DNA of 64,000 nt, taken from contig NC_090283.1 of NCBI RefSeq assembly GCF_037392515.1, positions 12,716,501-12,780,500 on the forward strand, given 5' to 3'. Each line of letters opens with the position of its first letter. Position 1 is the first letter of the stretch. Source of the DNA: Haliotis asinina (taxonomy: Eukaryota; Mollusca; Gastropoda; Lepetellida; Haliotidae). Below the pieces are notes generated by a model, which was not told where the DNA came from, ran no database searches, and was given only the letters and a program-made list of their open reading frames with translations. Below are positions 1 to 54,524 of the stretch, piece after piece. The position numbers and the translations under genes were made by a program.

Positions 1-1691
1 ATTATTATTTGAAATGAAATCCCCAAGGAGTTTACCTTTATTGTTAGTTGCGGAACTACATCACAGAGGGTTATGGCCATTAAGATCACCCATGATGAGA
101 CAGGGCTTTGGGAGCTGATGAAATGGAACCCTGAAGATCGGACTGCTGAATAACCGAAGAATGAGAAATATACAAAGAACAAAGTGTAAAGGTTATCTGT
201 AAAGTAAGGCGGACAGCAACAGCCTGAAGATTGGTTTTAAGATCCACAAGGCTATAGATAACACTCTGCCTCACCAGAACAGAAGCACCACCAGTGGCTC
301 TATCCCCAGGAGGTGAGAATGAATGATATGCATTGAACTGACGCAATGCAAATCTATCAGTACTTTTCACGTATGTCTCTTGTAGACTAAAAGCTGATGG
401 TTTAAAATCTTGAGATAATAACTGTAGATCATTAAAATTGTTCCCTGCAATTTCATTGTATTAAATTGGTAGTACTATTCATGACGGTTCAACAGGGGAT
501 CGTGAATGAGAGGAACGACTCCTCCCATATACTGGATGTGAAGGAGTGACCTCCATAACGAGAGGTCCAAATGGATTATGATCCGTTACAGACGTAGATG
601 AGGTAGACGGTACTTTTAAATGATCTACAGCTTTTGCTCTTCGCTGCTGTTTTTTTTTCTTTACTCGTCAAAGCGGTTCTTCCTTGTTCAGACCGTTTGT
701 TTGATAGAATCTCTAGATCTGGTTCTGTCTGTGAGGCCGATGTTATTACACCCGGTTCATTTTTAGGAATCCTATTTTGTTCATTGACAGTGATTTGCAC
801 CCTAGAAATAGTTGTCTGACATGAACTGGAAACCATTCCAACAAGACCATGAACAGGGGCGGAAACAGGGTATGAATATGTCCGACTATGGAAGTGCAAG
901 GATAATATTTTTTTTTGCTTCTTGGTAGGAGAGGTTGTTGTGATTTTTAGTTTTAGAAGCTGTGATTCATCATCGAAATTTGGACGGTGCGATGTGCTCA
1001 CCGGTACAGTTGGCACAATTGATGTCCTCTGTGCATCCCGTGTTGTCATGAGTCCCACTGCAACGGGAGCACACTGTCTTCTGTGTACAGGACTTGGCAC
1101 CGTGACCATATTTCTGGCATTTGAAACATCTCAGTGGTTTAGGTATGTATACATCCACTGGGATGTTCAAATAACCAGCTTTAATGGCTTTCGGTATAGT
1201 TGATAGTCCAAACGTAAACAGGCAGGTATTTGTGTTAATGATATTTTCATTTTGCTTTCTCGTAAATCGCTTTACAGACGTCACTCCTTGATGTTTCAGT
1301 TCTGTAGCAATGTCTTCCTCTGACATATAAGCCAGAAAACGAGATCTGTCTCCCACAATGCCTTTGCAAGTAGTCAATGATCTGTGTGCAAAGACAACAA
1401 ACTGTTTTAATCCTAACATGTTGATAGATTGTTGCCTTTGGGCCCATTCAATAACCGGAACGACGTGAACCGGGGCGAAGCCTTTTTACGTTTGTCACCT
1501 CACCACAGACACCTTTGATGCCCTTAGAAATGGCAAAGGGATTCAGTTTCAATTGACTTCCATCTGTTGCTTCAATAACCAAGAATCTTGGCCAAGTATC
1601 CACTACTGCTGAAGACACTTGTTGATGTTGAAAGATGTCGACGTTTATATTTCTTTGAACCAGAGGGTAGGTTTAGAGCCATGGTAGATTA

Positions 1692-1753
<62 letters not shown>

Positions 1754-2145
1754 ACATATATATATATATATATACATATATACATATATATATATATATG
1801 TATTCGTTATCAAAGATTCACAGTAATTAAAGTACATACTCTCCAGAATGTTGTCCATGCACAGGGCATGGCATGACCAGCCGATTGGTTGAACCGGGCC
1901 CATTCAACCACTCGTCTAGGTGAAGGGTCAAAGTGGTGTGTTGAGCAATAGGCGCACGGTTGCTTGCTCCTATTGCCCTCAACCACTTGGATCCCGTCCT
2001 CCACCGGTACAGGGCTGCAACCCACGGCAAACGGGTTGGTGGACTAAATATCCCCCCGGGTCCACAACGGGGGTGTTGGCGAGCTCTTGGCTTTACCCAG
2101 CACCCACCACGAGGAGGTGGCTCGCCACGGGTGCCAATAAACTAG
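1..2145 (-). mobile_element. I/Nimb-clade LINE, copy 1 (5' part, runs off left edge)
   Basis: The minus strand reads, from about 2145 down: a GC-rich 5' UTR matching that of the full-length copy at 20236; an ORF1 piece with zinc knuckles (CFKCQKYGHGAKSC) near 970-1420; and the start of ORF2 (endonuclease) from about 560 down to base 1, where the motif MGDLNGHNP sits about 30-80 bases from the edge. Protein similarity to the 20 kb copy is clear throughout (for example SPPGDRATGG and FTLCSLYIS). Reading frames are broken in several places, so the copy is dead. A CA/TA microsatellite splits the 5' UTR from ORF1. RT and RNase H would lie outside the window. Confidence 0.9.
1692..1799. repeat. (CA)n-(TA)n compound microsatellite
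   Basis: About 28 CA dinucleotides run into alternating TA/CATATA. It lies inside LINE copy 1, between its 5' UTR and ORF1. Confidence 0.97.
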
Positions 2146-5667: not shown

Positions 5668-5790
5668 ACGAGTGAGTGAGTGAGTGAGTTACTACTTAGC
5701 GTCACACCGCCAATATCCCATCTATATCGTGACGACAACAATTCATGAATCACAAATCAAATAGTGTCATGACTCGACTTACTTTTGAAT
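5668..5790 (-). mobile_element. 5'-truncated I-clade LINE 3' tail
   Basis: On the plus strand gagtgagtgagtgagtgagt is followed by tta...gcgtcacaccgcc...tatcgtgacgac. This is the reverse complement of the 3' end of the full LINE at 26230-26299 (cgtcacgatatgg...gtgacgtaaaa...CTCACTCAC). Confidence 0.7.
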
Positions 5791-6673: not shown

Positions 6674-6780
6674 CATGAGTGTGTGGGTGAGTGAGTTTAG
6701 TTTTACGCCGCTTTTAGCAATATTCCAGCAATATCACCAGAAAATGGGCTGGGAATCGAACTCGGTCTTCATGAACGTGG
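6674..6780 (-). repeat. SINE B copy
   Basis: gtgagtgagtttagttttac followed by gccgcttttagcaatattcc, then a B-box complement (ggaatcgaac) near 6750. The tRNA-like head is missing. Confidence 0.8.
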
Positions 6781-16072: not shown

Positions 16073-16199
16073 TATACTATATTTTCTTGTCGTGATATGG
16101 CTAACATATTGTTGATACAAAGTGAAATGCATGTCACTCACTCACTCACTATAGTATAGGATACTAGTATATAACTGTCGAGTAGTTTCACATGATTCA

Positions 16200-16445
16200 T
16201 GACTGTAGTATGTAACTATGATATAATTTTCACATTGCATATGACAGCAGTACATAATTGTCTAATACCTTTCACAAAACACATGACAGTAGTACATAAT
16301 TGTCTAATAACTTTCACAAAACACACGGTAGTAGTACATAACTGTCTAGTACCTCTCATAAAACACATGATAGTAGTACATAATTTTCTAGTTACTTTTA
16401 CAAAACACATGACAGTAGTACATTATTGTCTAGTTACTTTGTTAC
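16200..16445. repeat. 42-bp satellite, about 5 units
   Basis: Unit holds catgacagtagtacataatt followed by gtctaataactttcacaaaa. The 42-bp period keeps frames open on both strands, which is an artefact and not a gene. Confidence 0.92.
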
Positions 16446-17115
16446 ATCCATTAAGATGGTCTTGTGAATTCATTCACAGTGACACGGACTAGGGTGTGAG
16501 AACTGTTTATTTGTCGAGTAAAATTGATGACAAACTGACACCCTGCAACAAGGAATGGAATAATAAGAGTGCAATTCTCACAAGCTGACATACTCTCACA
16601 AGGTGACATATAAAAGCAACACTTTACACAGTCATAAGTGATACAATTATAAACATAGCATATCATAATCATTGCAGTTTCAGTTGCTCATACAATAAGA
16701 ATATGGCATTATCACGTGCCTGATATTATACTTAATTAATTGGAATGCCATAAACAAATATGTATAATTATATGTATACTAGGTACTCTATAAGTAGATA
16801 TAAACATGTATACCCTGTGATTCCCACGGGGGTGTTGTCCTGGCCTCTGACCAATAATATCTGGTATCGACCTGTTCATGATATAAAACATACCATGAAT
16901 ACTATTTACATATCTATATATTTCATATACACCTTTATCAGTTCACTGATAAACAATACAATTTACTACCACATCAACAAAAAACCACAACACACATATG
17001 ATAAAGAAAACCACACATAGGATCAAATATGGCATTTCTTATAAACATTCACTCAACTCATACACACACAAATACACACAGAGTATATGTGACATGTTGA
17101 GACATAATATTAATG
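16446..17115. other. Spacer between satellites
   Basis: AT-rich, with no gene or named repeat recognised. Confidence 0.4.
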
Positions 17116-17480
17116 TGACATAGATATATTTACTGGTAGCACTTTATACATTACAATATATATATTTACTGGTAGCACTTTATACATTACAATATATATA
17201 TTTACTGGTAGCACTTTATACATTACAATATATATATTTACATGTAGCACTTTATACATTACAATATATATATTTACGTGTAGCACTTTATACATTACAA
17301 TATATATATTTACATGTAGCACTTTATACATTACAATATATATATTTACATGTAGCACTTTATACATTACAATATATATATTTACGTGTAGCACTTTATA
17401 CATTACAATATATATATTTACATGTAGCACTTTATACATTACAATATATATATTTACGTGTAGCACTTTATACATTACTA
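17116..17480. repeat. 36-bp satellite, about 10 units
   Basis: Unit: tatatatttac, a variable NNTG/NNG step, then tagcactttatacattaca. Units differ at one step (ctggtag, catgtag or cgtgtag) in the order ctgg x3, catg, cgtg, catg, catg, cgtg, catg, cgtg, which indicates higher-order amplification. Open frame is incidental. Confidence 0.95.
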
Positions 17481-17489
17481 TAGCATAAA

Positions 17490-18077
17490 ATACATAATGA
17501 TTACTAACCCTTTTAATACATTGTCCGGAGTCTGTATGGTCCACATGTCCATGTGCAAGTGATAAGAAAAAGCATGTGGAAACAAAGGGTTGGGATGTAG
17601 GACACCTAATTCAAAACCAGCCAATGACTGAAATATCCAAGCTTACACTTTCATTGTTAGCTGCACTACCCGACACTGAAATGGACTTACCCAATGAAAT
17701 AACTTAACAAAAGAAATGAGCGTTAATGATATTACTTTACTTACAACAGCTTAAATATCTTACGCAGCCTGAAATGGGAGATTTAATTATTATAAATCAG
17801 TAATGCTGACTGGTTAATATACCTGAAATTGATACACCAAATGGTTATTTATTACTGTATTGCCTGGAGTACACAAATGACATTATTTTGAGCATACTAA
17901 AGTAAAACAGCTGAATGATAAAACATAATCACTATATACACAACTCTACCACATTACTTTCACAAAACACTTTATAGTAGTACATAACTGTCGAGTAATG
18001 TTCGCTCCAAAACATTTCAGTAGTACATGACTGTCAAATATCGTTAACACAAAACAGGAAAGTGGTACATAACTGTC
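17490..18077. other. Spacer with degenerate satellite units at its right end
   Basis: Mostly AT-rich unique-looking sequence. From about 17950 degenerate 42-bp-type units return (agtagtacataactgtcgag). Confidence 0.5.
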
Positions 18078-18482
18078 TTAAAATTTCACGTAACGCATGG
18101 CATTAGAACTTCACGCAACGCATGACATTAGAACTTCACGTAACGCATGACATTAGAACTTCACGTAACGCATGACATTAGAACTTCACGTAACGTATGA
18201 CATTAGAACTTCACGTAACACATGACATTAGAACTTCACGTAACACATGACATTAGAACTTCACGTAACGCATGACATTAGAACTTCACGTACCGCATGG
18301 CATTAGAACTTCACGTAACGCATGACATTAGAACTTCACGTAACGCATGACATTAGAACTTCACGTAACGCATGACATTAGAACTTCACGTAACGCATGA
18401 CATTAGAACTTCACGTAACGCATGACATTAGAACTTCACGTAACACATGACATTAGAACTTCACGTACCACATGGCATTAGT
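18078..18482. repeat. 25-bp satellite, about 16 units
   Basis: Near-identical units of aacttcacgtaacgcatgac plus attag. The edges grade into the 42-bp-type sequence (gtacataactgtctaaaat on the left, agtacatacgtgtggtgt on the right), so the 25-mer looks like an internally deleted 42-mer that then amplified. Confidence 0.95.
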
Positions 18483-19300
18483 ACATACGTGTGGTGTAAT
18501 TTTCACATAGCACATAATAGTAGTGCATAACTGTTAAGCAAGTTGTACATCCTGTTTCTGCTTTTGAAATAAGTTGATGTGTCTTGATCGATCACTACTG
18601 ACGACAACACGTCTTGTTCCGCGCTGTTGGCGAGCCAAACTAATATTCGCATTTGTAAGCAAAGTATTTTAAGCAGCAGAACGATTAAGGCACTGCATGT
18701 GTATTTCGTTCATGCGCAAATATCGAATCTTAACTGAATTTGCAATAACATTTCCGGATAGCGCGCAACTTAAATCTATCAAAATCGAATATAGAATACA
18801 ATCTATTATTTTCAGGCGAAAAAAAACATTTGTGGTAACACAAACTTCTCAAGCAGATGGCTTCAAGCGTGGATGTTTAGAACTGTCACTAATACTCTGG
18901 TTCACTGTATAACGGTCACAAACGATAATTACTAACAATTTTGATTATATATTATTCAACATCTCTGCAACATTTTTCAGACATGTAGAAGCAGCATCAA
19001 TTGCAGCTGACAGCAGCGTAAACTGATGTACTCGTAGTGACAAAAGAGCTGGTTTACTCCCATGTCTGTCAGATGTATTATTGACACTGGACTAGCTGAA
19101 CTGATATTCCGTCTGTCGTGTTGAAGAAAACATGAAAAGAATACTTTTTTCTTCGCTTTACTAATTGGAAAGTTAAAATATACTGAAGTGGAATCAGCCG
19201 ATGGTGTCGGTGCATAGAGCTTCTGTCAGTTTTTGCGTTCATTTAACTTACTTACTACACAGTTGTGATGCCAAATGAAATACCCATCAACACCCGTGTT
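18483..19300. other. Spacer, nothing recognised
   Basis: No gene, repeat family or RNA seen. Confidence 0.4.
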
Positions 19301-19509: not shown

Positions 19510-19860
19510 ATACAATATCATTTTATTGCTTTTGGTTTTGTTAATTATATCCCAAAGCAAATTTGTCTGTTTTACGAATACTAGCAAGAAGTTGGCTGAA
19601 ACGAAAATGCCATTGCTGTAACTTTAACGGCATAAAAGTGCACAAATGTACCCATTCGTAACAGTAACACACTTTATTTCTCAAAAGACATGCTTTTTAA
19701 TAACCTACTTTGTATCGCTAAGTAAGAAGGTGGTGATTGTACAAACTCGGGAGAAACCCGAAATAAGCAGAAGTGAAGGAATGAAAAGGATGAAGGAAAT
19801 TTACCAGATGACCATATCTCATCCAAGGTATTCAACTGTCTCTAAACATGATTCAAAGGA
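19510..19860. other. Spacer, nothing recognised
   Basis: No gene or repeat recognised between the A-rich tract and the SINE A copy. Confidence 0.4.
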
Positions 19861-19865
19861 CTCGT

Positions 19866-20127
19866 GAAGGTCCGGAGTAGAACACGCCTTCAGCAACCCA
19901 TGCCTTGCCATAAAAGGTGCCTATGCTTGTCGTAAGAGGCGACTAACGGGATCGGGTGATCAGAATAACTGACTTGGTTGACATATGTCATCGGTTCCCA
20001 ATTTTGTAGATCGATGCTCATGTTGTTGATCACTGGATTGTCTGGTCCATACTCGATTATTTACAGACCGCCGGCATATAGCTGGAATATTGCTGAGTGC
20101 GACGTAAAGCTAAATTCACTCACTCAG
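19866..20127 (+). repeat. SINE A copy, near full length
   Basis: Runs from ggtccggagtagaacacgcc through ggcgactaacgggatcgggt and gatcactggattgtctggtc to atagctggaatattgctgag, cgacgtaaagctaaa and a CACTCACTCA end. One of the best copies for defining the family. Confidence 0.92.
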
Positions 20128-20185
20128 GATTCAGGTAAGTGTTTCAAGAGATGATAATGAACATAATCAGCTCCTGTAACAGCGA
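20128..20185 (-). mobile_element. I-clade LINE RT fragment
   Basis: The minus strand encodes TGADYVHYHLLKHLPES, matching TGADNIHYQLLKHIPES of the full LINE at 23.45 kb. About 58 bp, wedged between SINE A and SINE B. Confidence 0.75.
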
Positions 20186-20186
20186 G

Positions 20187-20235
20187 TGAGTTGGATTTTA
20201 CGCCGCAATTTTCCAGCAATATCTTGACGGGAGAC
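20187..20235 (-). repeat. SINE B, tail half (split by a LINE)
   Basis: gcgagtgagttggattttac then gccgc...ttccagcaatatc, ending in ttgacgggagac (20224-20235). The same 12 bases restart the SINE at 26300, on the far side of the LINE, so this is the left half of one interrupted SINE. Confidence 0.85.
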
Positions 20236-20824
20236 GGCACCCGTGGCGAGCCACCTCCTCGTGGTGGGTGCTGGGTAACGCCAAGAGTTCGCCGACACCC
20301 CCGTAGTGGACCCGGGCGGATATTTGGTCCACCAACCCGTTTGCCGTGGGTTGCGGCCCTGTGTCGGTGGAGGAGGGGATCCTGGTGGTTGAGGGCAATG
20401 GGAGCAAGACCAGTGTTCCTATTGCTCAACACACCACTTCGGCCCTGACTTCACCTAGACGGGAGGTTGAATGGGCCCGGTTCAACCAATCGGCTGGTCA
20501 CGCCAAGCCCTGAGCATTACTGTATGTAATGTTACACAAAATTTTGAGAATCGTAAGATGTATATTATTAGGTCTTGGCCGATTTTTGGATCTTCTGAAT
20601 TTCAAATTTTACTAATTCATATTTTTGCCTAGAGTCGTATGCCCAGAAGGCATCATGGCTCATGGGCCAGTCTGGTGGAATTATTAATGTTTTCATTCTT
20701 CTGCTGGAGTATGTCATCCGAGTATCCTTGGTGCTGTAAGCTGGAGGCCCGCTTACTTTAGCATTGTCCTTGTGATAATCCGTGGTGGGTGGGGAGCTCG
20801 GATGATGAACCATTTAAACAAACC

Positions 20825-22093
20825 ATGGCTTATGAGAACCCAACAAAAAAAACAAAACGTCCACTTGATATTGACCCTGTTGATACTGACCATAGACCGT
20901 CTGCATCGATTGAGTATTCGCCGCGTTTCATTGTTATTGAGACTCCTGACAAGACACCATTAAAGTTGAACCCTTTTGCTGTATCCAAGGGTATTCAAGG
21001 TATTGCAGGGGATGTGAAGAACATAAGACGCTTGCGTTCAGGTGCCCTGTTAGTAGAGTGCGGAAAAAAGCAACAAGCAACTAATTTGCTGAACATCAAA
21101 TCTTTCGTGGGTTTCACGGTTTCTGCACACGAAACCTTGAATTCAAGCAAATGTATCGTTAGAGATCGAGACCGATTATTTGATGATATGTCGGAACTTG
21201 ATATAGGATCTGAAATGAAGGATCAAGGTGTACTCTACGTCAAGCGCTTTTCAACTCGGAGAAACAGTGAAACCATCAAAACGAACACCTATCTGTTTAC
21301 TTTTTCATGTCCTAATGCTGACAAATCAGTGAAGGCAGGCTACTGTAACATTCCAGTTGATACCTACATCCCCAACCCGCTCAGGTGTTTTAAATGCCAG
21401 AAATATGGACATGGCGTAAATACTTGCACACTGTCTGTTGTGTGTGCTCACTGTGGTGAGAAGACACACACAACAGAAGATTGTGACAGTGATTATAAAA
21501 AATGTACCAATTGCTCAGGCGACCATTCGTCATTTTCTAAACAGTGTCCTATTTGGAAAGAGCAAATGGAGATCAATAAAATAAAATTTGCACAAAATAT
21601 CTCTTTTTCTGAGGCCAAAAAACTGGTAAAGAGATCTGAACTTTCGGAAAGTTATGCTACAGTAGCAAAAACATCATCGGGGTGTAGCTCTAAAACAACA
21701 TCAACCACAGGGTGCCAAACTACCTTGACTTGGGTAAATTGTGATTCTCCACAGCCTTTGTGCACTGCTTTATCATCACAGACTGAGGAATCACTTCATA
21801 GTACATCAAAGGCTTCTTCTGATCACAAATCATCATCTCAGGCACACTCAAAGTCCAAATCGACAGCTGATAGTCAACACACTGTGAAAAGTAAACCGAA
21901 GCCAAAGCCTGCTGCTTCAAAACAACAAAGTGGCAGAGCTCCTAAAGGGTCACAGAACAAATTTCAACTGTTTAATAAATACGGGTCTCTTGAAGACATG
22001 GACGTTTCTGAAAACGTCCATTCTAGGGCACATAGCTTGTCGCCCTCCAAAAGAGTGCGGGGTAGATCCCCAATAAATCCCCGTAAAAGATAG
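20825..22093 (+). CDS. LINE ORF1 nucleic-acid-binding protein (intact frame)
   Basis: A 422-residue open frame starting at the ATG of MAYENPTKKTKR (the frame is open slightly further upstream from a GTG). It is basic at the N-terminus. Three CCHC-type knuckles lie near its middle (from about 21387): CFKCQKYGHGVNTC, CAHCGEKTHTTEDC and CTNCSGDHSSFSKQC. The C-terminal third is rich in Ser, Thr and Lys (SKSKSTADSQH, KSKPKPKPAASK). By family this protein coats LINE RNA in the ribonucleoprotein. It is the only long intact frame in the element. It ends just before the ORF2 coding begins. Confidence 0.88.
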   Translation: MAYENPTKKTKRPLDIDPVDTDHRPSASIEYSPRFIVIETPDKTPLKLNPFAVSKGIQGIAGDVKNIRRLRSGALLVECGKKQQATNLLNIKSFVGFTVSAHETLNSSKCIVRDRDRLFDDMSELDIGSEMKDQGVLYVKRFSTRRNSETIKTNTYLFTFSCPNADKSVKAGYCNIPVDTYIPNPLRCFKCQKYGHGVNTCTLSVVCAHCGEKTHTTEDCDSDYKKCTNCSGDHSSFSKQCPIWKEQMEINKIKFAQNISFSEAKKLVKRSELSESYATVAKTSSGCSSKTTSTTGCQTTLTWVNCDSPQPLCTALSSQTEESLHSTSKASSDHKSSSQAHSKSKSTADSQHTVKSKPKPKPAASKQQSGRAPKGSQNKFQLFNKYGSLEDMDVSENVHSRAHSLSPSKRVRGRSPINPRKR

Positions 22094-22104
22094 TTTATTC
22101 CAGT

Positions 22105-25100
22105 AATATTATACAGTGGAATTGCAGAGGATTGAGGACAAATTTACATGAATTACAGCTATTAGTCCAAGATTTCACACCTTCAGCGTTATGTCTCCAA
22201 GAGACATATTAAAAGCAAACAGATACATTTGACCTTCGTCATTTTAATGCATATCATTGCTTTTCACCTCCGGGTGATAGGGCCACTGGCGGATCATCCA
22301 TTCTAGTTAAACAAAACGTTATTCAAAGCCCTGTTTCACTTAATACTAACATGCAGGCTGTTGCAGTGAGAATTACTTTACATGTAGCGTTTACGCTATG
22401 CTCTCTTTATATTTCACCCTCTTCGGCTTTTGCCAAAACCGATCTTCAAGCTCTATATGATCAGCTCCCGAAGCCCTGTATTATAATGGGAGATTTAAAT
22501 GGCCACAACCCACTCTGGGGTAGTGTAAATACAAACACTAGAGGTAAATTGTTGGAGGACTTTTGTTCTGACAATGACTTATGTATTTATAATGATGGTT
22601 CCAACACATATTTACACCCTGGTACAGGGACTTATTCTGCTCTCGACTTGTCATTGACAAATTCAGAACTATTAAATGAATTCGAATGGTCAGTCCAAGA
22701 TGACCTGTGTGGAAGTGACCATTTTCCTACTATATTAAAAGCTGTAACTCCATCTGATGTTCCTCCATCATCAAGACGGAATTTTAAAAAGGCTAACTGG
22801 GCTTTATATGAAACACTGTGTGCTGAAAAACTTAAACCCGAACGTTTTATTGACGTTCCTGATGCTATTAAATCTTTTTCTGATGAACTGAGTTCCATAG
22901 CTGATGAGTGTATACCAAATTCCTCTGTAGTTTCACACATAAGAAAACCATGGTTCAACGATGAGTGCAAACAAGCTAGGAAGGCAAGGAAAAAGGCAGA
23001 ACATTATTTCCGTCGCCATCCTATGGTACATAATTTAAATAAATTTTAAATTTTAAATGCTAAAGCACGGCGTACTTTTAAACAGAACAAACGCCAATCT
23101 TGGAAAAATTATGTGTCCAAAATAAATTCTCGGACACCCATGTCCAAGGTATGGAACATGGTCTAGAAAATCAAAGGTAAAGGTACTAAATCTACTGTCC
23201 ATCATCTTAAACGTGGAGATCAATTGCTTACTGATAAATCAGATATTGCTAATAAACTAGGTGAAACCCTTGCTAGACACTCTTCCTCTTCAAAGTATGT
23301 ACCAAAATTCCAGCAATATCAAAAAAGAAGAAAAGAAAACTATTAATTTCAGTTCTGATAATGGGGAAGATTATAATGAAACGTTTGCTATTCATGAACT
23401 CCATACTGCTATTGATCAAGCTCATGACACTGCTACTGGAGCTGATAACATACATTATCAGCTCCTGAAGCACATACCGGAATCCTGCCTAGAAACTCTT
23501 TTCAATATTTTTGATGATATTTGGACATCGGGTAACTTTCCTCCGTCATGGCGTGACGCCATAGTAGTACCAATACCTAAACCTGGACGTGATCATACGG
23601 ATCCGTCCAATTATCGACCTATTTCACTAACTAGCTGTGTTTGCAAGACCATGGAACGCATGATAAATAATCGACTTGTTTGGTAATTGGAAACAAATAA
23701 TCTTATCACAGATATACAGTGTGGTTTCCGTAAAAACAAAAGTACTGTCGATCACTTAGTGCGACTGGAATCATTTGTTGAAAACGCACTAATTAATAAA
23801 CAACATGCTGTGTCTATCTTTTTTGATCTTGAAAAAGCATATGACACAACCTGGACACATGGTATTTTGAGGGATTTACATGACTTTGGTTTGCGAGGTC
23901 GTTTGCCTCAATTTATTGACAGACTTTTTAATTGACAGACAATTCCAGGTCCGTGTTGGTTCTACCCTGTCTGATCATTACAATCAGGAACAGGGTGTTC
24001 CACAAGGCAGTATTTTTAGCATCAAGATCAACAGTTTATCAAAAGTTTTAAACGATTCAATTGATGGATCGCTTTTCGTGGATGCTTTTAATATTTCTTG
24101 CCGAGGTAAAAATATGCATACTATTGAACGGCAACTGCAGTTGTGTTTAAACAAAATAAATAAATGGTGTCTTGAAAACGGCTTCAAATTTTCGAAGTCC
24201 AAAACTAATTGTATACATTTTTGCAGAACATATAAGCCACATAAGGACCCAGAACTATCTCTAGATGGCACTCCCATCAAAGTTGTAAAGGAGGCCAAGT
24301 TCTTGGGATTAATTTTTGACTCACATTTAACGTTTCTACCACATATCAAATCCCTCAAAACTAAATGCCTGAAGGCACTTGACTTGTTGAAAGTCGTTTC
24401 AAATTCTAAATGGGGAGGGGACCAAACTACCCTCCTGCAACTTTATCGATCACTACTGATCCGGTCAAAACTTGATTATGGCTCCATTGTATATGGTGGA
24501 GCCTGTAAAAGCAACCTGAAACTTTTAGATTCTGTTCACCGTCAAGGTCTAAGACTTTGTCTTGGCTCCTTTGGAACTTCACCTGTTGACAGCCTGTACG
24601 TTGAGGCCGATGAGCCATCTCTTGAGCAGCGACGTATCAAATTAGCTTTACAGTATGTAACAAAATTATATTCCAGTGAGTCAAACCCTGTATATAACTG
24701 TGTTTTCAGTGCTCTGTGTGAGGACAATATGAAATCTTCGCTTGTACCGCCTCTTGGTTTAAGAATTAAACCATTTCTTGCTGCTGCCGGCATTGCGCTG
24801 GAAAATATAGCTCCTTCCCGTCTTCTTTCTTCTTCTCCTTGGCAGCTGCTTAGGCCCCAAGTGGACCTAACACTGACCACATTTAAAAAATCAGAAACTA
24901 ATGAATTACATTATAAACAAGAATATAATGACTTGAAACATAAATATAGCAGTTATAAATCCTTATTTACACCAAGGACGGTGGCGCAGTAGCTTGTGCC
25001 ACTGTCATTGGATCCAGAACAATATCTTCTAGATTACCAGACAACAGTTCTATTTTTACCGCTGAGGCTAACGCCATATTAACAGCTCTTAAATATATTC

Positions 25101-25732
25101 AAAGACGCCGTAAACATAAACAATATATAATCTATTCCGGCTCTCTTTCCTGCCTTCAGGCGATTAAAAATATTTCTTGCAAACATCCACTTTTAATAGA
25201 AATTATTGAATTGTATAATGATCTTGCTACTGGCCAATACGACATCGTCTTCTGTTGGTTACCCAGCCACGTTGGCATTTCCGGTAACGCAATGGCCGAT
25301 CTTGCTGCTAAGGCAGCACTCAACAAATCTGTGACACCACTTCTTATTCCATATTCAGATTACAAAGCTTGCATTAGATCTTATATCCGTGACCTGATGC
25401 AGAAGAAATGGGACACCCAGGTAGGTATAAATAAATTACTAGTATATGAAATAAAACCTTATATTGGTTACACCTAATTGGGTCGTCAGTCCAGATTTGA
25501 AGAGGTTATTTTAAGACGATGTCGTATTGGCCACACAAGATATACCCATAAATATTTGCTTAAAGGTGAGGATCCTCCATTTTGCATCCCTTGTGATGAG
25601 AGAACCACGGTCAAGCACATCCTGCTTGACTGTGTTGAATTCTCCATCACAAGGGATAGATATTTTAATGTAAAAACAATGTCAGATCTTTTTAACACAA
25701 TTAGTGCTCATTTAATTATTGGATTTTTATAA
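22105..25732 (+). pseudogene. LINE ORF2: endonuclease, reverse transcriptase, RNase H (broken)
   Basis: Endonuclease at 22105-22740 (IIQWNCRGLR, MGDLNGHNPLWGS, GSDHFPTI), RT at about 23400-24600 (NYRPISLTSCVCKTMER, CGFRKNKSTVDHLVRLE, FDLEKAYDTTW, QEQGVPQGS), RNase H at about 24970-25330 (FTAEANAILTAL, WLPSHVGISGNAMADLAAKA) and a C-terminal CX2CX7HX4C motif near 25.6 kb. In-frame stops at 22210, 23047, 23684 and 25475; frame changes between 23050 and 23260, near 23930 and near 24970. The RT active site reads FVDA (about 24078) in place of the usual xxDD. An RNase H position usually Asp reads Gly (YSGS). The element cannot move itself. Confidence 0.9.
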
Positions 25733-26299
25733 GAAACTGATTTCATGTATGAATTCTGATTATTATGTTCTGTAGATAGTTGCATTTTAATTATTGGTAG
25801 TTTAGATTAGTAACTTGAATTGTTGATGGCTGTACCCTCAAAGGGGGTTGAAGTATTGTAAAATTATTGTCCTCCTGAGAGGGTACGTAAGTCCACAAAC
25901 ACTCACAGTAAATTTAAGTCTACCAGGTTTTTAATCGTAGTATTTATGTTCTTTTAATTTTGGCTAAATCGCAAGCAGCTGAAGGGATGGTGTAAATCCA
26001 ACTAGGGTCCATGTAGGAAACAAAGGTACTGTAAGTCCCCATGGTCCCTAGTGTGGTGATCTACCTTCTGTTGTTGTCGATCTATAGTCTGTTTTTTATA
26101 TTGTATTGTCTAAATAGTGCTATTAGTTTTAACTTTCCATGCTAGTTTTAATTGAAATTGTGATATTCTAGTTGTTTTACTGTCCTTCGTTGACAGATTT
26201 TACCACATGCATATATTTCATGTAAATGTTCTCGTCACGATATGGCTGGGATAATGCCGATGTGACGTAAAATATTACCTCACTCACTCACTCACTCAC

Positions 26300-26405
26300 T
26301 TGACGGGAGACACAATGACTTCGAACATTGTACTCATGTGAGGAATCGAACCCGGGCCTTCAGCGAGACGAGCGAATGCTTTAACCACTAGGCTACCCCA
26401 TTACC
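26300..26405 (-). repeat. SINE B, head half (split by a LINE)
   Basis: Begins with the duplicated ttgacgggagac, then the complement of the B box (ggaatcgaacccgggcc) and of the tRNA-like head (gcgaatgctttaaccactag, gctacccc). With 20187-20235 it makes one nearly complete SINE B. Confidence 0.88.
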
Positions 26406-26989
26406 CCTTTAACTGTATCACAAGCATGTTCATGAGCTCATCAATGGAAAAAGATTTCATTATAATCCGTCTCACTATCTTGAATTGAAATTGATACTTT
26501 TTTCATGCTGTATTTGTAGTTTGTAATATCAATTAACAGACCGGAAGGTCATTACAGTTTTTTTCCCGAAACTAAGTTAGAGGAACAGTTCACTGAAGTT
26601 TCACTTCAGATCATGAACGAGGGGAATGTCCTCTACACTCCACTGCCAGGATTGGGAGACAAATAACTAGGGATTCAAATGTGTTGTGCTCTTACGGGGA
26701 AACTGTCATTGGTGAAGGCACCCCAACATGCTTTATGGCCCTGGATCTCTTTTCTTTTGTTGTTGTTTTCTCGTTGGGGAAATGTTTCACAGTTCAATAA
26801 CAGGTTCAAGTTGGGGCTCCATGATTGCAGGTATAGCAACTAAGTTTTTTTTCGTTCTTTTTTTCTTTATGGCAGTGGTTCGGTTTAGTACATCGTTGTA
26901 TCGTTCACTTTTTATTCGCTCGTCGTTGATAGACATTTAGTATCATTTTAGTGAAAAATGTGTCATTACAGTATTTAGAGAATTTTAGT
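26406..26989. other. Spacer, nothing recognised
   Basis: Lies between SINE B and the third LINE copy. No convincing exon or repeat. Confidence 0.4.
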
Positions 26990-29035
26990 CTGTGTCAGGA
27001 AAGCTGTACATGACTTCGGGATGGATCTGTGTTATGCCCGAGGCACAAACATCCATTCCAAGGCTAAAACATTCAGCTTTGATCAATGATGGGATCTTTG
27101 TAAGCAAAGGTGAAAAGACAGATATTGGCCTTAATCAGTTTGTCACCTATTTTACTAAACCGCTTCACAAATTTTACAACTGTGACTTCATTTCTGGAAC
27201 AATCTCCACTTCAGACATATCCTACAGGCATTTTGCACGATCACGTGCAATGCCTCTACTTGAATTGAGTGTTTTGTGGATTGAGACAAAAACAATCGGT
27301 GAGAAATCACTGATACAATGATTACCATCAAAAATATTCAGAGACGATTCACATTTTTGCAGCTCGATAAATGAATTCAATAGTTTTTGAAATGACGAAC
27401 GGGCTGAATGTAAGGGGCACGCCGTCGATTTCACTGACAGCCAAGAGTGACCAACAATGGATGCTGTGCGGGGATTCTTCCTCAGGAGAATCTGGTTTGA
27501 AACATCAGTATCACTGAGCTGTCTTTTAGTTTTAGGTCGTGAGTTATCCTGTATAGCCATGAAGAAAAAACCTGTCCAGCACAACGCTTCCCCGCCTACC
27601 ATGGAGCGCCAACAAGGACAAGTGTAGGGATAAACCTCAGCTACAAGGATGTTATACGCCAACACAAAGGACACAGAAATAGTCAAATAGTGCTCAAGGT
27701 CAGGCTGGTTCGGCCCTTGACAGGTACCTGATGACAAATCGAACCTGGAGGTCATCAGTCGGCAAGTTGTAATAGTTTGTAAATTTTCTTGGATAGAATG
27801 TTTAACGTGTGAAATATAAGCACACATTTAAGTCAATGCGTAGGGCATGGCCAGCTGATTGGTTGAACAGGCCCATTCTACCATTCGTCTGTCGGAGTAA
27901 GGGTCAAAGAGTTGTGTTGGGCGAAGGAACGATGTTCCTGGAAGCAGTGTCCTCAGCCACCAGAATCCTCCCTCACCAACACAGGGCTCAACCCACGTTT
28001 AACCACCTGGGAAGGTTACGTCCATTGTTCTTGGAAATATTAGCGGATTAACTGACATAGGGCAGTTACCTTTGATTACTCTACTTAAAAACAATAAAAT
28101 GTCCTTATTTTGATAATGTTCATCTGAACTGTTACATTACACTCGTATTGAGTACGCATGCTCTTGTGGCGTAAGCCATTTAGTCACCCTCACTGCGGTA
28201 GTTATTTAAATAAACTGTACTCGGACTAAAACCCTCGCATACTTAATTTAGTACCCTCTTTACACTTGAGGCGGAGTCAGCCTAAATGCTGAAAGAAAAT
28301 TTCTGGAGATTCCTGCAAGTTCGAACTGAATTCTAAAACTTCTTACTGCATTCCGAATGCATTCCAACTATTCAGGTCAATTCTTGTAACGTGCCCGAAT
28401 GTTTTGAGCATGTTCAAACCTTTCCAGGTACATTCGAAGTGGACGCACTACATTCTGAGTATTCGTACTGCAGTCGAACTGCATTTAAAGCATTCAGAAC
28501 ATATTCGAGGAAGATTAGAGAAGACAGGCCACTTCCGAATCCTGTCAGAACTCGAATGCACCTCGAATGTATCTCAATATGCTTAAAACGTATATTGAAT
28601 ATTCGATTGAAGTTGGAATACAGCTCGAATGTACCTCGAATACACAGTCAGAACGTCCTGAATGCTCTTCAAATTGCCCATGACGTCACCAGAACACCGC
28701 AGAATCGCAGAACTCCACCTGTCACTGAAACGACTGATAACACTTGGGAGTCGCGTTCTTATATAAGCTGGAAAACATTGCTAATTTTGACATTCCTTCC
28801 GAAATATTTTTTTCTCCTGATTCTCCCTGATTCCTGTCAAGTCGAAATAAGTGTGGTGGAGCTTTAAGTAACTAAATGTAAGGGTGATTAACCTATACAC
28901 AAACTGGGTATCCAATTCGGCCACCTTTTACTGCTTTGACGGTGTGCTGAGGCCTTATTCTGTCCCGGGTCCCCACTGGGGAAGAGCTGTAAGTGTTACC
29001 CAGCACCCACCGCGAGGCGTCGACTCTTCAAGAGT
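26990..29035 (-). mobile_element. I/Nimb-clade LINE, copy 3 (5' UTR and ORF1 part)
   Basis: Minus strand: 5' UTR pieces at 28940-29035 (gttacccagcacccaccgcg) and 27840-28020 (gattggttgaacaggcccat), then ORF1 with MAIQDNSRPKTKRQLSD near 27.56 kb, IHKTLNSSRGIARDRAK near 27.26 kb and LIKANICLFTF near 27.1 kb, matching ETLNSSKCIVRDRD and TIKTNTYLFTF of the full copy. It stops near 26990 before the zinc knuckles. More diverged than copies 1 and 2. Interrupted by about 0.9 kb of foreign sequence. Confidence 0.8.
28025..28930. mobile_element. Unclassified 0.9-kb insertion in LINE copy 3
   Basis: Splits the 5' UTR of copy 3 between blocks that are contiguous in copies 1 and 2. It is rich in variants of CATTCGAA/CGAATGTA spaced at irregular intervals (28310-28660). 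It has no recognised protein; the longest plus-strand frame (28391-28867) looks like a by-product. Possible weak inverted ends (gttacctttgattactctac against gtaactaaatgtaagggtga). Family unknown. Confidence 0.45.
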
Positions 29036-29214
29036 ACTACCATAAGAATATATTTGATTTGATCGGGGTTTGATTTGTCCAATCTGGTCAATGAAGCGGA
29101 TTTGGACCAAATGTTAGTAAGAATATATTCAACTCTTGTCATATTGATTTTCCAGGTATTTAGGCAAGTTACTGCATTACCCTTCGCTTGCTGATACTAA
29201 GATCTGTGACATAT

Positions 29215-29345
29215 CGGGGCGGTGGGGTAGCCAACTGGTTAAAGCGTTCGCTCCTCACGCCGAAGACCCGGGTTCGATTCCCAACATGGGTACAATGTGT
29301 GACTTTACGATATCGTAAAGTTTCAGTCGCAAAAATCACAAAGAC
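29215..29345 (+). repeat. SINE B head (tRNA-like)
   Basis: ggggcggtggggtagccaac then tggttaaagcgttcgctcct and gacccgggttcgattcccaa. The A box (TAGCCAACTGG) and B box (GGTTCGATTCC) are both intact. The tail is replaced by unrelated sequence after gtacaatgtgtga. Confidence 0.88.
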
Positions 29346-29573
29346 TCCACCCTCACTGTCATCAAGTTCCCTACCAGAGAGTTAGCACCTATATGGTCAC
29401 ATAATGTGACAGTTATAACGTAACTGGTAGCAATGTGTGACAGTTATACAATTAGAATGTACCATAATTGGTCACAATGAGATTTACAACCAGGATGGTT
29501 ACAACAGGACAGCGATGGCTCGTTTGGTTATTAAATGTTACTCGTCTTCCTATTTGGTGACAATATTTGATAG

Positions 29574-29836
29574 AGTGAGTGAGTGTGTAGTTTTACGCTG
29601 CACTCAGCAATATTCCAGCTATATGGCGGCGGTCTGTAAATAATCGAGTCTGGACCAGACAATCCAGTGATCAACAACATCGATCTGCGCAATTGGGAAC
29701 CGATGACATATGCCAACCAAGTCAGCAAGCCTGACCACCCGATCCCGTTAGTCGCCTCTTACGACAAGCATAGTTGCCTTTTATGGCAGGCATGGATTGC
29801 TGAAGGCCTATTCTACCCCGAGACCTTCACGGGTAC
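29574..29836 (-). repeat. SINE A copy, near full length
   Basis: gagtgagtgtgtagttttac through atatggcggcggtctgtaaa and gtcgcctcttacgacaagca to accttcacgggtac. About 260 bp and well preserved. Confidence 0.95.
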
Positions 29837-29885
29837 AATATTTGATAGATATACGTTTAATGTTTACAATACGATTTGAATTGTG

Positions 29886-30200
29886 GGGCGTGGTGGGCGA
29901 GCTGGCTGAAGCGGCAGGCTGGTGATCCACCGGGCTTCAGGTGTCATCGTCCAGCCCATCTGTAACCGGGTGTAAAATCCTTAGGTGTCAACATTGCGTG
30001 CAGACTCTTTCGGTGTTGTCACAACTCTGAGTATACAGTACACAATCCTGTGCACTTAAAAGAACCCACGAATCAGATGGCGGTCCCATGAATGCCTGCA
30101 GATACTTAGTTGCCAGTACAGCAAAGGGCAGAAAACTTTGACAGAATACTGTAACTATGTGTCCCAGACCACCCAGCTGTGAATGAGTACCTCGCAAGGA
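29886..30200 (+). repeat. SINE E candidate (tRNA-like head, long body)
   Basis: Head gtggtgggcgagctggctga...ggtgatccaccgggcttcag, then a body ending ccagctgtgaatgagtacct. The A-box-like part is good but the B box is degenerate. Layout resembles the long tRNA-derived SINEs of marine invertebrates; named here from memory and not verified. Confidence 0.5.
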
Positions 30201-30202
30201 GT

Positions 30203-30360
30203 GATTGAGTTTAGTTTTACGCCGTACGCAATATGCCAGCTATAATCGAGTCTGGACCAGACAATCCAGTGATCAACAACATGAGCATCGATCTGCACCA
30301 TTGGGAACCGATGACGTGTCAACCAAGTCAGCTATTCTGACCACCCGATCCCGTCGTAAG
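30203..30360 (-). repeat. SINE A copy, internally deleted
   Basis: gattgagtttagttttacgc, then a direct jump to aatcgagtctggaccagaca and gatcaacaacatgagcatcg. The atatggcgg...taaat block is missing. Confidence 0.88.
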
Positions 30361-30689
30361 GATGAAAAGGGGGCAATAACTTGGTGTGCCTAGTGTTTGT
30401 AAGAGTGTATGATCCCTGGGGAGTTGAGATTAATAATACACTGTGCCGTTGAGACTGACAATGATAGATGGAAAAAATACTAGCACATGCTCTAGCTGCG
30501 TGGATCTGTCGGTCACAATATATGACATCCTAAATAATCACAATATAAACTATTACATGTACCTAGATTGTATCCGTGAGGCAGGTTCACAAACCCTATT
30601 TCGTTACATAAGAGTTATATACCCGTTGGTTACAACGGGACAGTAATATCCTAAATGTTCCAATCATGCTTCAGCTGGTTTCATCTCCA
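30361..30689. other. Spacer, nothing recognised
   Basis: No gene or repeat recognised between SINE A and SINE B. Confidence 0.4.
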
Positions 30690-31845: not shown

Positions 31846-31849
31846 CCTG

Positions 31850-32012
31850 AGTGAGTGACTTTATTTTTATGCTGTCTTTCACCAATATTTCAGCAATATC
31901 ATAGCAGGGGACACCAAAAATAGGCTTCAAACATAGTACCCATATGGTAAATCAAACACGGATGTTCGACCTGACAAACCAACACTTTAACCACTATAGT
32001 ACTGTTGGACAT
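31850..32012 (-). repeat. SINE B copy, diverged
   Basis: gagtgagtgactttattttt, accaatatttcagcaatatc and gcaggggacaccaaaaatag, then the head complement ccaacactttaaccactata. Confidence 0.82.
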
Positions 32013-35926: not shown

Positions 35927-45084
<9,158 letters not shown>

Positions 45085-51595: not shown

Positions 51596-54524
51596 TCACC
51601 TCCTTCGATCATCATATCCTCTTTTATCTCGACTCCTGTCATCTCGCTGATATCTGTCATGATCACCTCGGAATCGATCCTCAGAGTTATCTCCCCTTCT
51701 TTGCCTGAAGTCGTCCCTCTCTCTGTCTCTCCAAACATCATCTCTCCTGTCATCCCTCCCTCTATCAAATCTCTCATTTCTCCTATCTTGTGATCTGTTC
51801 ATTCCATTTCTGTACCCAGAATCTCTATGAAAGTCTCCATCACCTTCTCTGTCGAAACCCCCACGGACATCTCGCCTTTCCCTTTCGAATGCCCCACCCC
51901 CATCTCGCCTGTCTCTTGCAAAGTCCAAACCCACATCTCGTCTGTCTCTCTGATAGCCACCACCACCATCTCGGTTGTCTCTTTCAAAGGTTCGGCCTCC
52001 ATTTCGCCTGTCTCTCTCAAAACCCCCACCCCCATCTCGCCTATCTCTCTCAAAGGCTCCACCCCCATCTCTCCTGTCTCGCTCGAAGCTGTCCACTGGA
52101 GAAACTCTTTGTCTTTCCTGTTTGACAAACCCAGGATCAAATTTTTCCTTCTTTGTTCTGACCGGTTGACTCCTATCATGTGACCTCTCATCCTCACTAC
52201 TTGAAGCTGATTCTGATACAATCTTTTTCTTTTTCTTTTCTTTCTTTTTCTTCTTCTTCGCTTTCTTATCAGGATCTTTTACTGGAACAAAATAATTTTA
52301 CACTACAGCACAGCATATTCTTTGGCTGATAAATGATTAAAATTACTTAAACACATCTTTTTGTGTTTTAGCTATGACAGATGAATGGTAGACACAAAGT
52401 GTGTCATAATTTACCACTACATGTTTTGATAATTACTCTATCATTTGGTATGCCATACAATCAGAACAGATGCTGCCATAACAATGTCAACAAACCAACT
52501 GTTCTCAGTAACTTCATCAAAGATGAAAATAGCTTGGTAATAAATTCAGGTTACCTTTCTTGGCTTTCTTTACAACAACTGGTTCCTCTTCTTCTGATGA
52601 TGATGATGACTGGATCTTTGGGGCACATCCCTCTTCCCTCAGCCTCTTTGTGACTTCATCCTCATCTCCATGTTCCTTTGGGATCTTGTAGTTCTCCACG
52701 TGGTCGACACGGATGACACGCCCCAGGAGCTGTAACAGTTAAAGATGTCGATAAGCTAATAAAGTATCGTAAGACTTCTTGGTTGGCTACATGGCGGTGG
52801 TATAGAAATAATCGAGTCTGGATCAGACAATCCAGTAATCAACAGCAGGAGCATCCATTTATGCAAATGGGATATGATGACAAGTGTAAACCAATTCAGT
52901 GAGCCTGACCACCCGATCCTGTTAGTTGCCTTTACAACAAGCACAGGTTGCTGAGTGAGTGAATGAGTTTATTTTTACTCCACTTTCAGCAATATTCCAC
53001 AGCAGGGGACCCAAGAAATGGGCTTCATACATTTTTGAGGTTAGACAGGAAAACTATACAACAAGCCTGCTGTTCAGTACAGTGACATTGTCACTCATGA
53101 CCTTCACCTTAATGCTGTTGAGGTTGTCTACTGCCAGTACAGTACTGCGCTGATCCTCGTAACAGAGGAAGCAGTAGCCCTTGGACTTGCCAGTTCCTTT
53201 GTCTCGTACCAGGTTTATGTGAACAATTTCTCCATACCTGTAAGAACATATATTGATCACTGATCATTACAGAAGTGTTTCCCCTGAAGTATTTTCAGCA
53301 GGTCGCACCATCCTCTGCTTTCTATATGAGACCCTGACCCTTCTTTGTATTACAATAACTGATATTAACACTTGGTGGGTATAACTGACTGAATCCAGGC
53401 ATCATGATTTATAAACACTCTTGCAGAAGATGTGTAACATTTTGTTTGATTACTGTTACCCGGTAATGTGACATATACAGAACAACAAAAGAAACACAAG
53501 TTTTGAATGAAATCTCACACGTGTAAATGTTCCATGTTTATTTTTTCTCCTTAAAACTTGACAAAAAGTTGCGTTTCTTTTGCTGTTCAGTATAGAATGA
53601 CAGTACATGAACATACGCCACGTTGAAGTTATCTGAAACAGCCCTGAAGAGAAAAAGATCTTTACCTCTTGTCCCCAACTGGTCAAATGTAGTATGTGAG
53701 TGAGTGAGTGAGTGTTTTACACCGCACTCAGCAGATATTCCAGCTATAAGGCGGTAGTCTGTAAATAATGTATTCTGGACCAGACAATCCAGTGATCAAC
53801 AGCATGAGCATCGATCTGCACAATTGGGAACTGATGACGTGTCAACCAAGTCTGACCACCCGATCCCATTAGTCCCCTCTTACGACAAGCATAGTCACCT
53901 TTTATGGCAAGCATGGGATGCTGAAGGCCTTATTCTACCCCAGGACCTTCACAGGCAAATATACATTGAACACCCAAAGAGAACTAACACTAGTAACAGA
54001 ACCAGAATAATAACACCTGTATGTACTAGGGTGATCAAAATATTATCTGGAGCTCTGGCTATGTGATTGAACTGACTCATCACTCACCTCTGAAACTATG
54101 CTTACTAATGCCAAAGCTTCCAAATGAGAAGCAGCTGGGTAGCCTAGTGCTTAAAATGGTGCTTGTTATGTCACTGGACTTAGTTCCCTTAGTTCCATTC
54201 CCGAAACTGTTTCATTATGTTGTTCCCCTCCCTCCATCATATTTTCGGAATACTGCTAGATGAGGAATAAAACCATATTCATTCTCCTCTTTAGGAATGT
54301 CCTTCTTCGGCATGACAGAAAGCTAACATGTAGTATCATAAATAGAACTAATGTTTTTCACTCACTGGGAGAAGACACAGATTACGTCTCCCTCTGTGAG
54401 GTCATAGGGAAGTCCACCAATAAAGAGCCATGCACTGTCCTTATATTGGTCATGCCATGACTTCTTGCCAACAGTTCCAAGCTGTAGCTCAGTTTGGTTC
54501 AACTTCTGGATGTTACGGACATTT
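51596..54524 (-). CDS. RBMX2: RBMX2, spliceosomal RRM protein (first coding exon not found)
   Basis: Exons on the minus strand: 54366-54524, 53108-53237, 52555-52729 and 51596-52281, with matching phases and GT-AG borders. The RRM spans the first three: LGTVGKKSWHDQYKDSAWLF, IGGLPYDLTEGDVICVFSQ, YGEIVHINLVRD, KGYCFLCYEDQRSTVLAVDN (RNP1) and LLGRVIRVDHVENYKIPKE, all close to human RBMX2. Then an acidic Ser/Glu run (SSSSSEEEEPVVVKK), a Lys-rich stretch, and a C-terminal tail of about 150 residues with repeats of FERDRRDGGG type. In yeast the equivalent (Snu17/Ist3) belongs to the RES complex with Bud13 and Pml1, aiding pre-mRNA splicing and retention. The visible part is about 382 residues, longer than the human protein because of the tail. 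The short first exon (human MNPLTK) must lie above 54524 and was not recognised. Confidence 0.92.
52780..52955 (-). repeat. SINE A copy in RBMX2 intron
   Basis: ctacatggcggtggtataga, aatcgagtctggatcagaca and ccacccgatcctgttagttg. The tail end is missing. Confidence 0.85.
52956..53045 (-). repeat. SINE B fragment in RBMX2 intron
   Basis: gagtgaatgagtttattttt, cactttcagcaatattccac and gaaatgggcttcatacattt. Abuts the SINE A copy and ends about 60 bp before the neighbouring exon. Confidence 0.82.
53695..53960 (-). repeat. SINE A copy in RBMX2 intron
   Basis: gtgagtgagtgagtgagtgt, ttccagctataaggcggtag and gatcaacagcatgagcatcg to caggaccttcacaggc. Near full length. Confidence 0.93.
54131..54290 (+). 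repeat. SINE B copy, strongly decayed
   Basis: agctgggtagcctagtgctt (A box), gttccattcccg (B-box remnant) and ttttcggaatactgctagat. Located in RBMX2 intron. Confidence 0.7.

Follow-up and report, generated by a model that had tools for sequence, protein, structure and literature searches.

The window (the whole stretch of 64,000 nucleotides of Haliotis asinina DNA that was analysed) contains a full-length LINE of 6,063 bp at 20236..26298 (+), with Pfam matches inside it and a 13-bp target-site duplication, CTTGACGGGAGAC, at both ends. The two copies of the duplication (20223..20235 and 26299..26311, both +) bracket 20236-26298, so the LINE proper stops at 26298. When the flanks were joined, an older antisense copy of a short element, SINE B, was restored, with 122 of 153 aligned columns equal to the SINE B consensus; either half alone covered only part of that consensus. 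The LINE is inserted into this older copy, the tail half of which, also found as a profile tail, lies at 20182..20235 (-) and the tRNA-like head half, also found by consensus match, at 26299..26397 (-).

ORF1 of the LINE (20762..22093, +) contains three CCHC-like motifs judged by eye and gave no Pfam match. ORF2 contains endonuclease (Exo_endo_phos_2, 22213..23049, +), reverse transcriptase (RVT_1, 23261..24992, +) and RNase H (24959..25477, +) parts, all present by Pfam. The reverse transcriptase frame is in three pieces, the first of which scores below Pfam's cut-off. Since the reading frame is broken at several places, this copy is probably dead. Because it carries RNase H, the LINE can be placed with fair confidence in the I superfamily on its Pfam domain content. 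The I-superfamily clades given for the molluscs studied, in the relevant section of PMC10294476, are Nimb and Ingi only, plus an unknown clade in one cephalopod. The 5' part of a second LINE copy, with ORF1 and endonuclease pieces, occupies 1..2135 (-); its 5' end is at 2135 and it extends beyond the window.

The 5' end of the LINE is an HDV-like ribozyme candidate (20236..20293, +), for which a compact form below the Rfam cut-off is proposed. The match to RF02682 starts at base 1 of the LINE (23.1 bits, cut-off 44), and the match to RF00094 starts two bases before it. The second window copy gave 22.7 bits with RF02682, and the gathering cut-off of RF00094 (50 bits) was missed by both copies (29.9 bits in the full-length LINE and 24.8 in the second). 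Further copies of the candidate were placed at 2078-2135 (-) in the window and in the loci L009 (8562-8619, -), L012 (6292-6349, +) and L011 (-). For L009 RF02682 alone was listed (E 2.7); at E<=3 no RF00094 match was obtained in L009, L011, L012 or L014, nor any Rfam match in L011 and L012, though the same letters are present there. All 19 pairs of the proposed double pseudoknot form in five of five copies, and its 3' half departs from the RF00094 alignment. In L009 two P2 pairs carry changes on both sides, a level that 22 of 500 shuffles reach. Twenty fetched LINE copies, selected as aligning from base 1, had 20 different flanks immediately before GGCACCCGTG. HDV-like ribozymes are described at the 5' ends of R2, R4, Dong, Baggins, L1Tc and RTE in the part of PMC3774820 that deals with them. 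The candidate resembles these in its predicted double pseudoknot and in starting, by prediction, on base 1 of the element; it differs in falling short of the 50-bit cut-off (29.9 bits) and in its proposed compact form, which has no clear P4.

SINE A and SINE B

Copies of SINE A were located at 29576..29834 (-), with a 15-bp direct repeat at both ends, and at 19860..20126 (+), 38167..38424 (+) and 53701..53955 (-). SINE B copies lie at 38814..38972 (+) and 31848..31996 (-), and a 5' truncated copy with a near-consensus tail, assigned by eye and by consensus match, lies at 6684..6768 (-). The SINE B consensus contains TAGCCTAGTGG and GGTTCGATTCC, which by eye we take to be A- and B-box-like. ARAGORN returned 0 tRNA genes over the window, and Rfam no tRNA match over 19800-30400. 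The centre of SINE A may resemble the Nin-type core of Nin-DC SINEs. A Nin-SINE of Lottia is described in a passage of PMC11121367. At its 5' end (compared at 29834 (-), 19860 (+) and 63459 (-)), SINE A can be drawn over some 40 nt as a possible pseudoknot in which ACCC would pair with GGGT and TGAAGRTC with GRYCTTCA; judged by eye, paired changes appear to occur among copies.

Target duplications were searched for at 39 tails. Eight candidates were obtained, of which four were accepted by eye and four discarded as repeat-like or chance. The four accepted duplications, of 10-15 bp, each flank a copy of SINE A; two of these copies are shortened to 52-64 nt. Target-primed reverse transcription would be expected to leave such 5' truncated, tail-only copies. 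SINE A copies reduced nearly to the tail, with direct repeats at their ends, were noted at L009 4793-4847, at L022 223-287 and in L111 (the last by eye).

Hairpin tails of the LINE and the SINEs

The tail letters quoted in the preliminary description are present at 26230-26299. The LINE ends in CGTCAC-GATAT-GGC-TGGGATAAT-GCC-GAT-GTGACG-TAAAATATTAC-(CTCA)5, so that its final ~70 nt form a hairpin with a 6-bp stem followed by (CTCA)n. The hairpin (26233..26267, +) has an outer stem of CGTCAC (26233-26238) and GTGACG (26262-26267), an inner stem of GGC (26244-26246) and GCC (26256-26258) and a loop at 26247-26255; the terminal (CTCA)5 lies at 26279..26298 (+). The window holds eight matches to CTCACTCACTCAC, some overlapping, against 0.01 expected. 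A second LINE-type tail, 84% identical to the LINE end over 81 nt, was found at 5670..5749 (-).

The consensus tail of the sampled SINE A copies is CGCCGC-CATAT-AGC-TGGAATATT-GCT-GAGT-GCGGCG-TAAAACTAAA-CTCACTC, and that of the sampled SINE B copies CGCYGT-GATAT-TGC-TGGAATATT-GCT-AAAA-GCGGCG-TAAAACTAAA-CTCACTC, variable bases being settled by hand. Both end in the same hairpin as the LINE, in register, with different stem letters.

A tail profile was searched at E<1e-3 over 288 kb, made up of the window, 20 evenly placed 10-kb stretches and eight pattern-picked loci. The last (L001-L008) were kept in the profile counts and the tail-consensus alignment and left out of the SINE divergence set and the target-duplication search. 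The search gave 76 tails, 27 of them inside the window. Upstream of these lay SINE A bodies in 28 cases, SINE B bodies in 26 and both in three, so that 57 of the 76 sit below a SINE A or SINE B body; the 19 unassigned tails include LINE tails and truncated SINEs. The LINE also ends in such a tail. Patterns were then counted across the 1.14-Gb genome (159 contigs). The SINE A tail core gave 10,865 matches and the SINE B core 4,907, together more than 15,000 places with the loop and 3' flank as in the LINE. LINE ends, from a 3'-UTR anchor through to the repeat, gave 1,373 matches, among which places with long repeats may count more than once. The reversed-pattern controls for these three patterns gave 0 matches each.

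Within the LINE the tail is conserved. Twenty LINE 3' ends were hand-picked to be diverse among the matches listed for the anchored pattern; in these, mean identity was 84% over the 48-nt tail, 59% over the 38 nt upstream and 50% when shuffled; the first figure errs low because odd-tailed copies were favoured in picking. The hairpin sequence was present in 38 of 39 further LINE 3' ends, and at least two repeat units in 37 of 39, the exceptions being L049, which stops within the tail, and L057, which has one repeat unit. These 39 ends have 38 distinct flanks (L041 and L067 have a common one).

The preliminary description had held that the LINE and the two SINEs carry the same module, in the same order and with the same terminal repeat, despite unrelated 5' parts. 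This was borne out, and is strengthened by the in-register hairpin in which two pairs are changed on both sides. With the CTCA repeat excluded, the LINE tail agreed with that of SINE A in 34 of 49 columns and with that of SINE B in 32 of 49, likeness equalled by 1 and 22 of 10,000 dinucleotide shuffles, respectively, and thus above chance for the tail common to all three. CTCA repeats by themselves are weak evidence, and what is left of the tail is short (about 48 nt), as would suit chance or convergence of short elements ending in simple repeats with no common machinery. That explanation is very improbable in view of the shuffle tests, which exclude the repeat, of the agreement of register, hairpin and loop, and of the background scores of two other LINE ends.

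Those two ends, picked by eye, scored 10-12 against the SINE tails. The other reverse-transcriptase-like elements were in L011, in L014 and in the window at 12993-12556, the last having similarity to reverse transcriptase and no Pfam match; a 3' end was picked for two of the three, that in L011 not being recognised. The LINE consensus scored 26 against SINE A and 23 against SINE B, and its copy in L068 scored 40 and 35. As for other LINEs as tail donors, no better match was seen in this comparison of two by-eye ends (10-12 against 23-40).

The structure was counted in an alignment of seven rows, in which SINE A, SINE B and the second window tail were set beside four LINE forms. Pairing holds in seven of seven rows for the outer stem and in 81% of cells for the inner stem, SINE B having a T-T mismatch in the latter. 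From LINE to SINEs a T-A pair of the outer stem becomes C-G and an A-T pair becomes G-C; with both sides of two pairs altered, pairing is kept in the SINE hairpins. Covariation was 0.286; shuffles gave 0.178, with 1 of 500 reaching the observed value, and slid controls stayed at or below 0.159. Pairs changed on both sides numbered three, one of them in the inner stem (95 of 500 shuffles reach three), and the number of pair types was matched by 500 of 500 shuffles. The two outer changes may each be one event, because they are identical in SINE A and SINE B. The covariation evidence for the hairpin is suggestive, short of proof. Two LINE forms (z -3.4 and -3.0), SINE A (z -2.9) and SINE B (z -2.1) folded better than shuffles; the second window tail did no better than shuffles (z -1.2) and was the one among six sequences folded with a different minimum-energy fold. 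Compensation within LINE copies was not found: where the left arm read CGCCAC (32 copies), the right arm kept A in 31 and had G in one.

A hairpin in L024 (CGTCGC/GCGACG) was considered as an intermediate between LINE and SINE stems and rejected. Of 219 candidate copies 40 were scored, L024 itself among them, and every one of these aligns across the hairpin without a break, so the hairpin is internal to a longer repeat. The structure count was redone without this row, with a result much alike, and the figures above are those of the redone set.

Origin of the SINE tails

The matching stem changes suggest that the SINEs borrow their copying enzyme from the window LINE or from an element closely related to it. 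The preliminary description further took most SINE copies in the window to have been made with machinery from this LINE family. The shared tail of stringent type stood; to make the LINE itself the supplier of most copies claims too much, since the tail of SINE A is more like that of SINE B (41 of 47 columns alike) than either is like the LINE, and since the SINE-type arm, taken in the form GGCGTAAAA rather than GGCGTTAAA, had 0 matches genome-wide behind the LINE 3'-UTR anchor, against the 1,373 LINE-end matches. Neither SINE tail was near-identical to any of the LINE ends compared, the best agreement being the 38 of 49 columns between L068 and SINE A.

The same observations would fit an origin of the SINE tails in another LINE lineage, extinct or unsampled, whose stem was GC-rich; the window LINE would then be no more than a cousin and would not mobilise the SINEs. 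The LINE burst, younger than the SINEs sampled, points the same way. Against this, 56 places in the genome have a LINE-type tail with the SINE-type loop GGAATATTG, one of which (L068) was fetched with the LINE 3'-UTR anchor; with its likeness to SINE A, these tails indicate that forms near the SINE tail exist in the LINE family. Moreover, no other LINE bearing such a tail was seen in the window and 200 kb. We regard a separate lineage as possible but doubtful; it overlaps with the reading preferred below, which names no single direct donor. We also looked for elements of a third kind, combining a LINE-like inner arm with a tail of SINE type. Tails with the LINE-like GATATGGCTG and a SINE-type arm occur at 37 places in the genome, and all 14 that were fetched proved to be SINE A or SINE B.

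Alternatively, the tail may have been borrowed once from a LINE and then passed from SINE to SINE by template switching, a course that we hold to be a serious possibility, somewhat short of an even chance. The SINE A and SINE B tails are mutually closest, GC stem and GTAAAACTAAACTCACTC end included, but one extinct LINE form feeding both SINEs predicts the same likeness, and the spacer from the inner stem to the right arm differs (GAGT in A, AAAA in B).

The ages of the elements lean against coincidence, on unmatched samples. All 39 non-self matches to the 5' end of the LINE showed 99% identity with the window copy (best 40 of 663 candidates, self included), and the 3' UTRs were 92-96% identical (39 non-self; best 40 of 7,137 candidates). 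Median non-CpG divergence in the window and 200 kb was ~12% for SINE A (47 matches, range 1.8-21.4) and ~15% for SINE B (52 matches, some of them cross-matches to SINE A tails). Since the LINE set contains top-scoring copies only, the samples are unmatched and the claim is limited to a recent LINE burst without a clear SINE counterpart here.

The reading that we prefer, and consider likely, is that the tail is a shared RNA 3'-end signal read by an RNase-H-bearing LINE lineage and used in trans by SINE A and SINE B, with an older or unsampled relative as donor or with SINE stems that have changed. The signal would consist of the 6-bp stem, an inner stem of 2-3 bp and the conserved loop core, then CGTAAAA or CGTTAAA, and would be closed by the slippage-prone (CTCA)n. 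We infer that the reverse transcriptase of this lineage probably recognises the hairpin, whereupon target-primed reverse transcription would begin. Because both SINEs bear the same 3' signal, they probably exploit the LINE machinery in trans, as a stringent-type SINE/LINE pair. Probably either the direct donor, and partner of the bulk of the SINEs, was a relative of the window LINE that is older or was not sampled, or the SINE stems were altered pairwise after borrowing, with loop and flank held.

More tentatively, the enzyme might read shape and loop, so that the SINEs could rewrite the stem, and the LINE might define both ends of its RNA by structure, with an HDV-like ribozyme cutting at the first base on the 5' side and the hairpin on the 3' side. 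Were shape and loop what is read, parasites could alter the stem and yet remain compatible. In zebrafish L2 LINEs a stem swap is tolerated and a loop swap is not, according to the pertinent part of PMC4176376, and the kept loop and changed stem seen here fit that tolerance.

Comparison with known pairs and neighbouring features

Tail sharing between SINEs and LINEs is well documented, an I-type case included; the present pair adds informative twists. The 3' end of the Gecko SINE of Aedes aegypti matches the tails of an I-type LINE, I-74_AAe / MosquI (Table 1 of PMC3747384). Here SINE 3' ends likewise match a LINE that is probably I-type by its domains; the animals and the sequence are other ones, and two SINE families with different 5' parts are involved. 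For maize and sorghum SINEs and plant L1, a section of the same paper describes 3' hairpins with compensatory stem changes and a conserved loop. The common points are a 3' hairpin, compensatory stem changes and a conserved loop and 3' flank in LINE and SINEs; that pair belongs to the L1 clade, whereas our LINE carries RNase H and ends in (CTCA)n. UnaL2/UnaSINE and ZfL2-1/-2 are likewise of stringent type, with a required 3' stem-loop, a loop that is read specifically and an exchangeable stem (PMC4176376, in the part cited above). They are of the L2 clade and were tested in cells, while the evidence here comes from sequence. A literature search on the tail letters and on mollusc or abalone SINEs and LINEs found no description of the present pair within its coverage; PMC4758252, outside that coverage, may describe it.

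The material offers a usable LINE/SINE pair from a mollusc, comprising a LINE with many near-identical 5' ends and two SINE families, and its natural variants of stem and loop lend themselves to swap tests of reverse transcriptase recognition. The pair also hints at the machinery by which very abundant short repeats of the genome spread, to one of which a published abalone colour SNP is linked. The SINE A core at 29761 (-) matches 45 of 49 bases of the published Haliotis gigantea probe around rs26532113, an abalone colour SNP in ITGA8 (PMC13170236), and on this match the SNP appears to lie within a SINE copy. A word search of the main text of that paper met SINE solely as part of longer words, and transposons nowhere but in the genome statistics and among the references.

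At 16185-18552 lie neighbouring tandem arrays whose units measure 42, 36 and 25 bp, and an array with a 66-bp unit lies at 9104-9513. Seven copies of a 33-bp repeat occupy 51835-52116; the unit is a multiple of three and the repeat is possibly coding.
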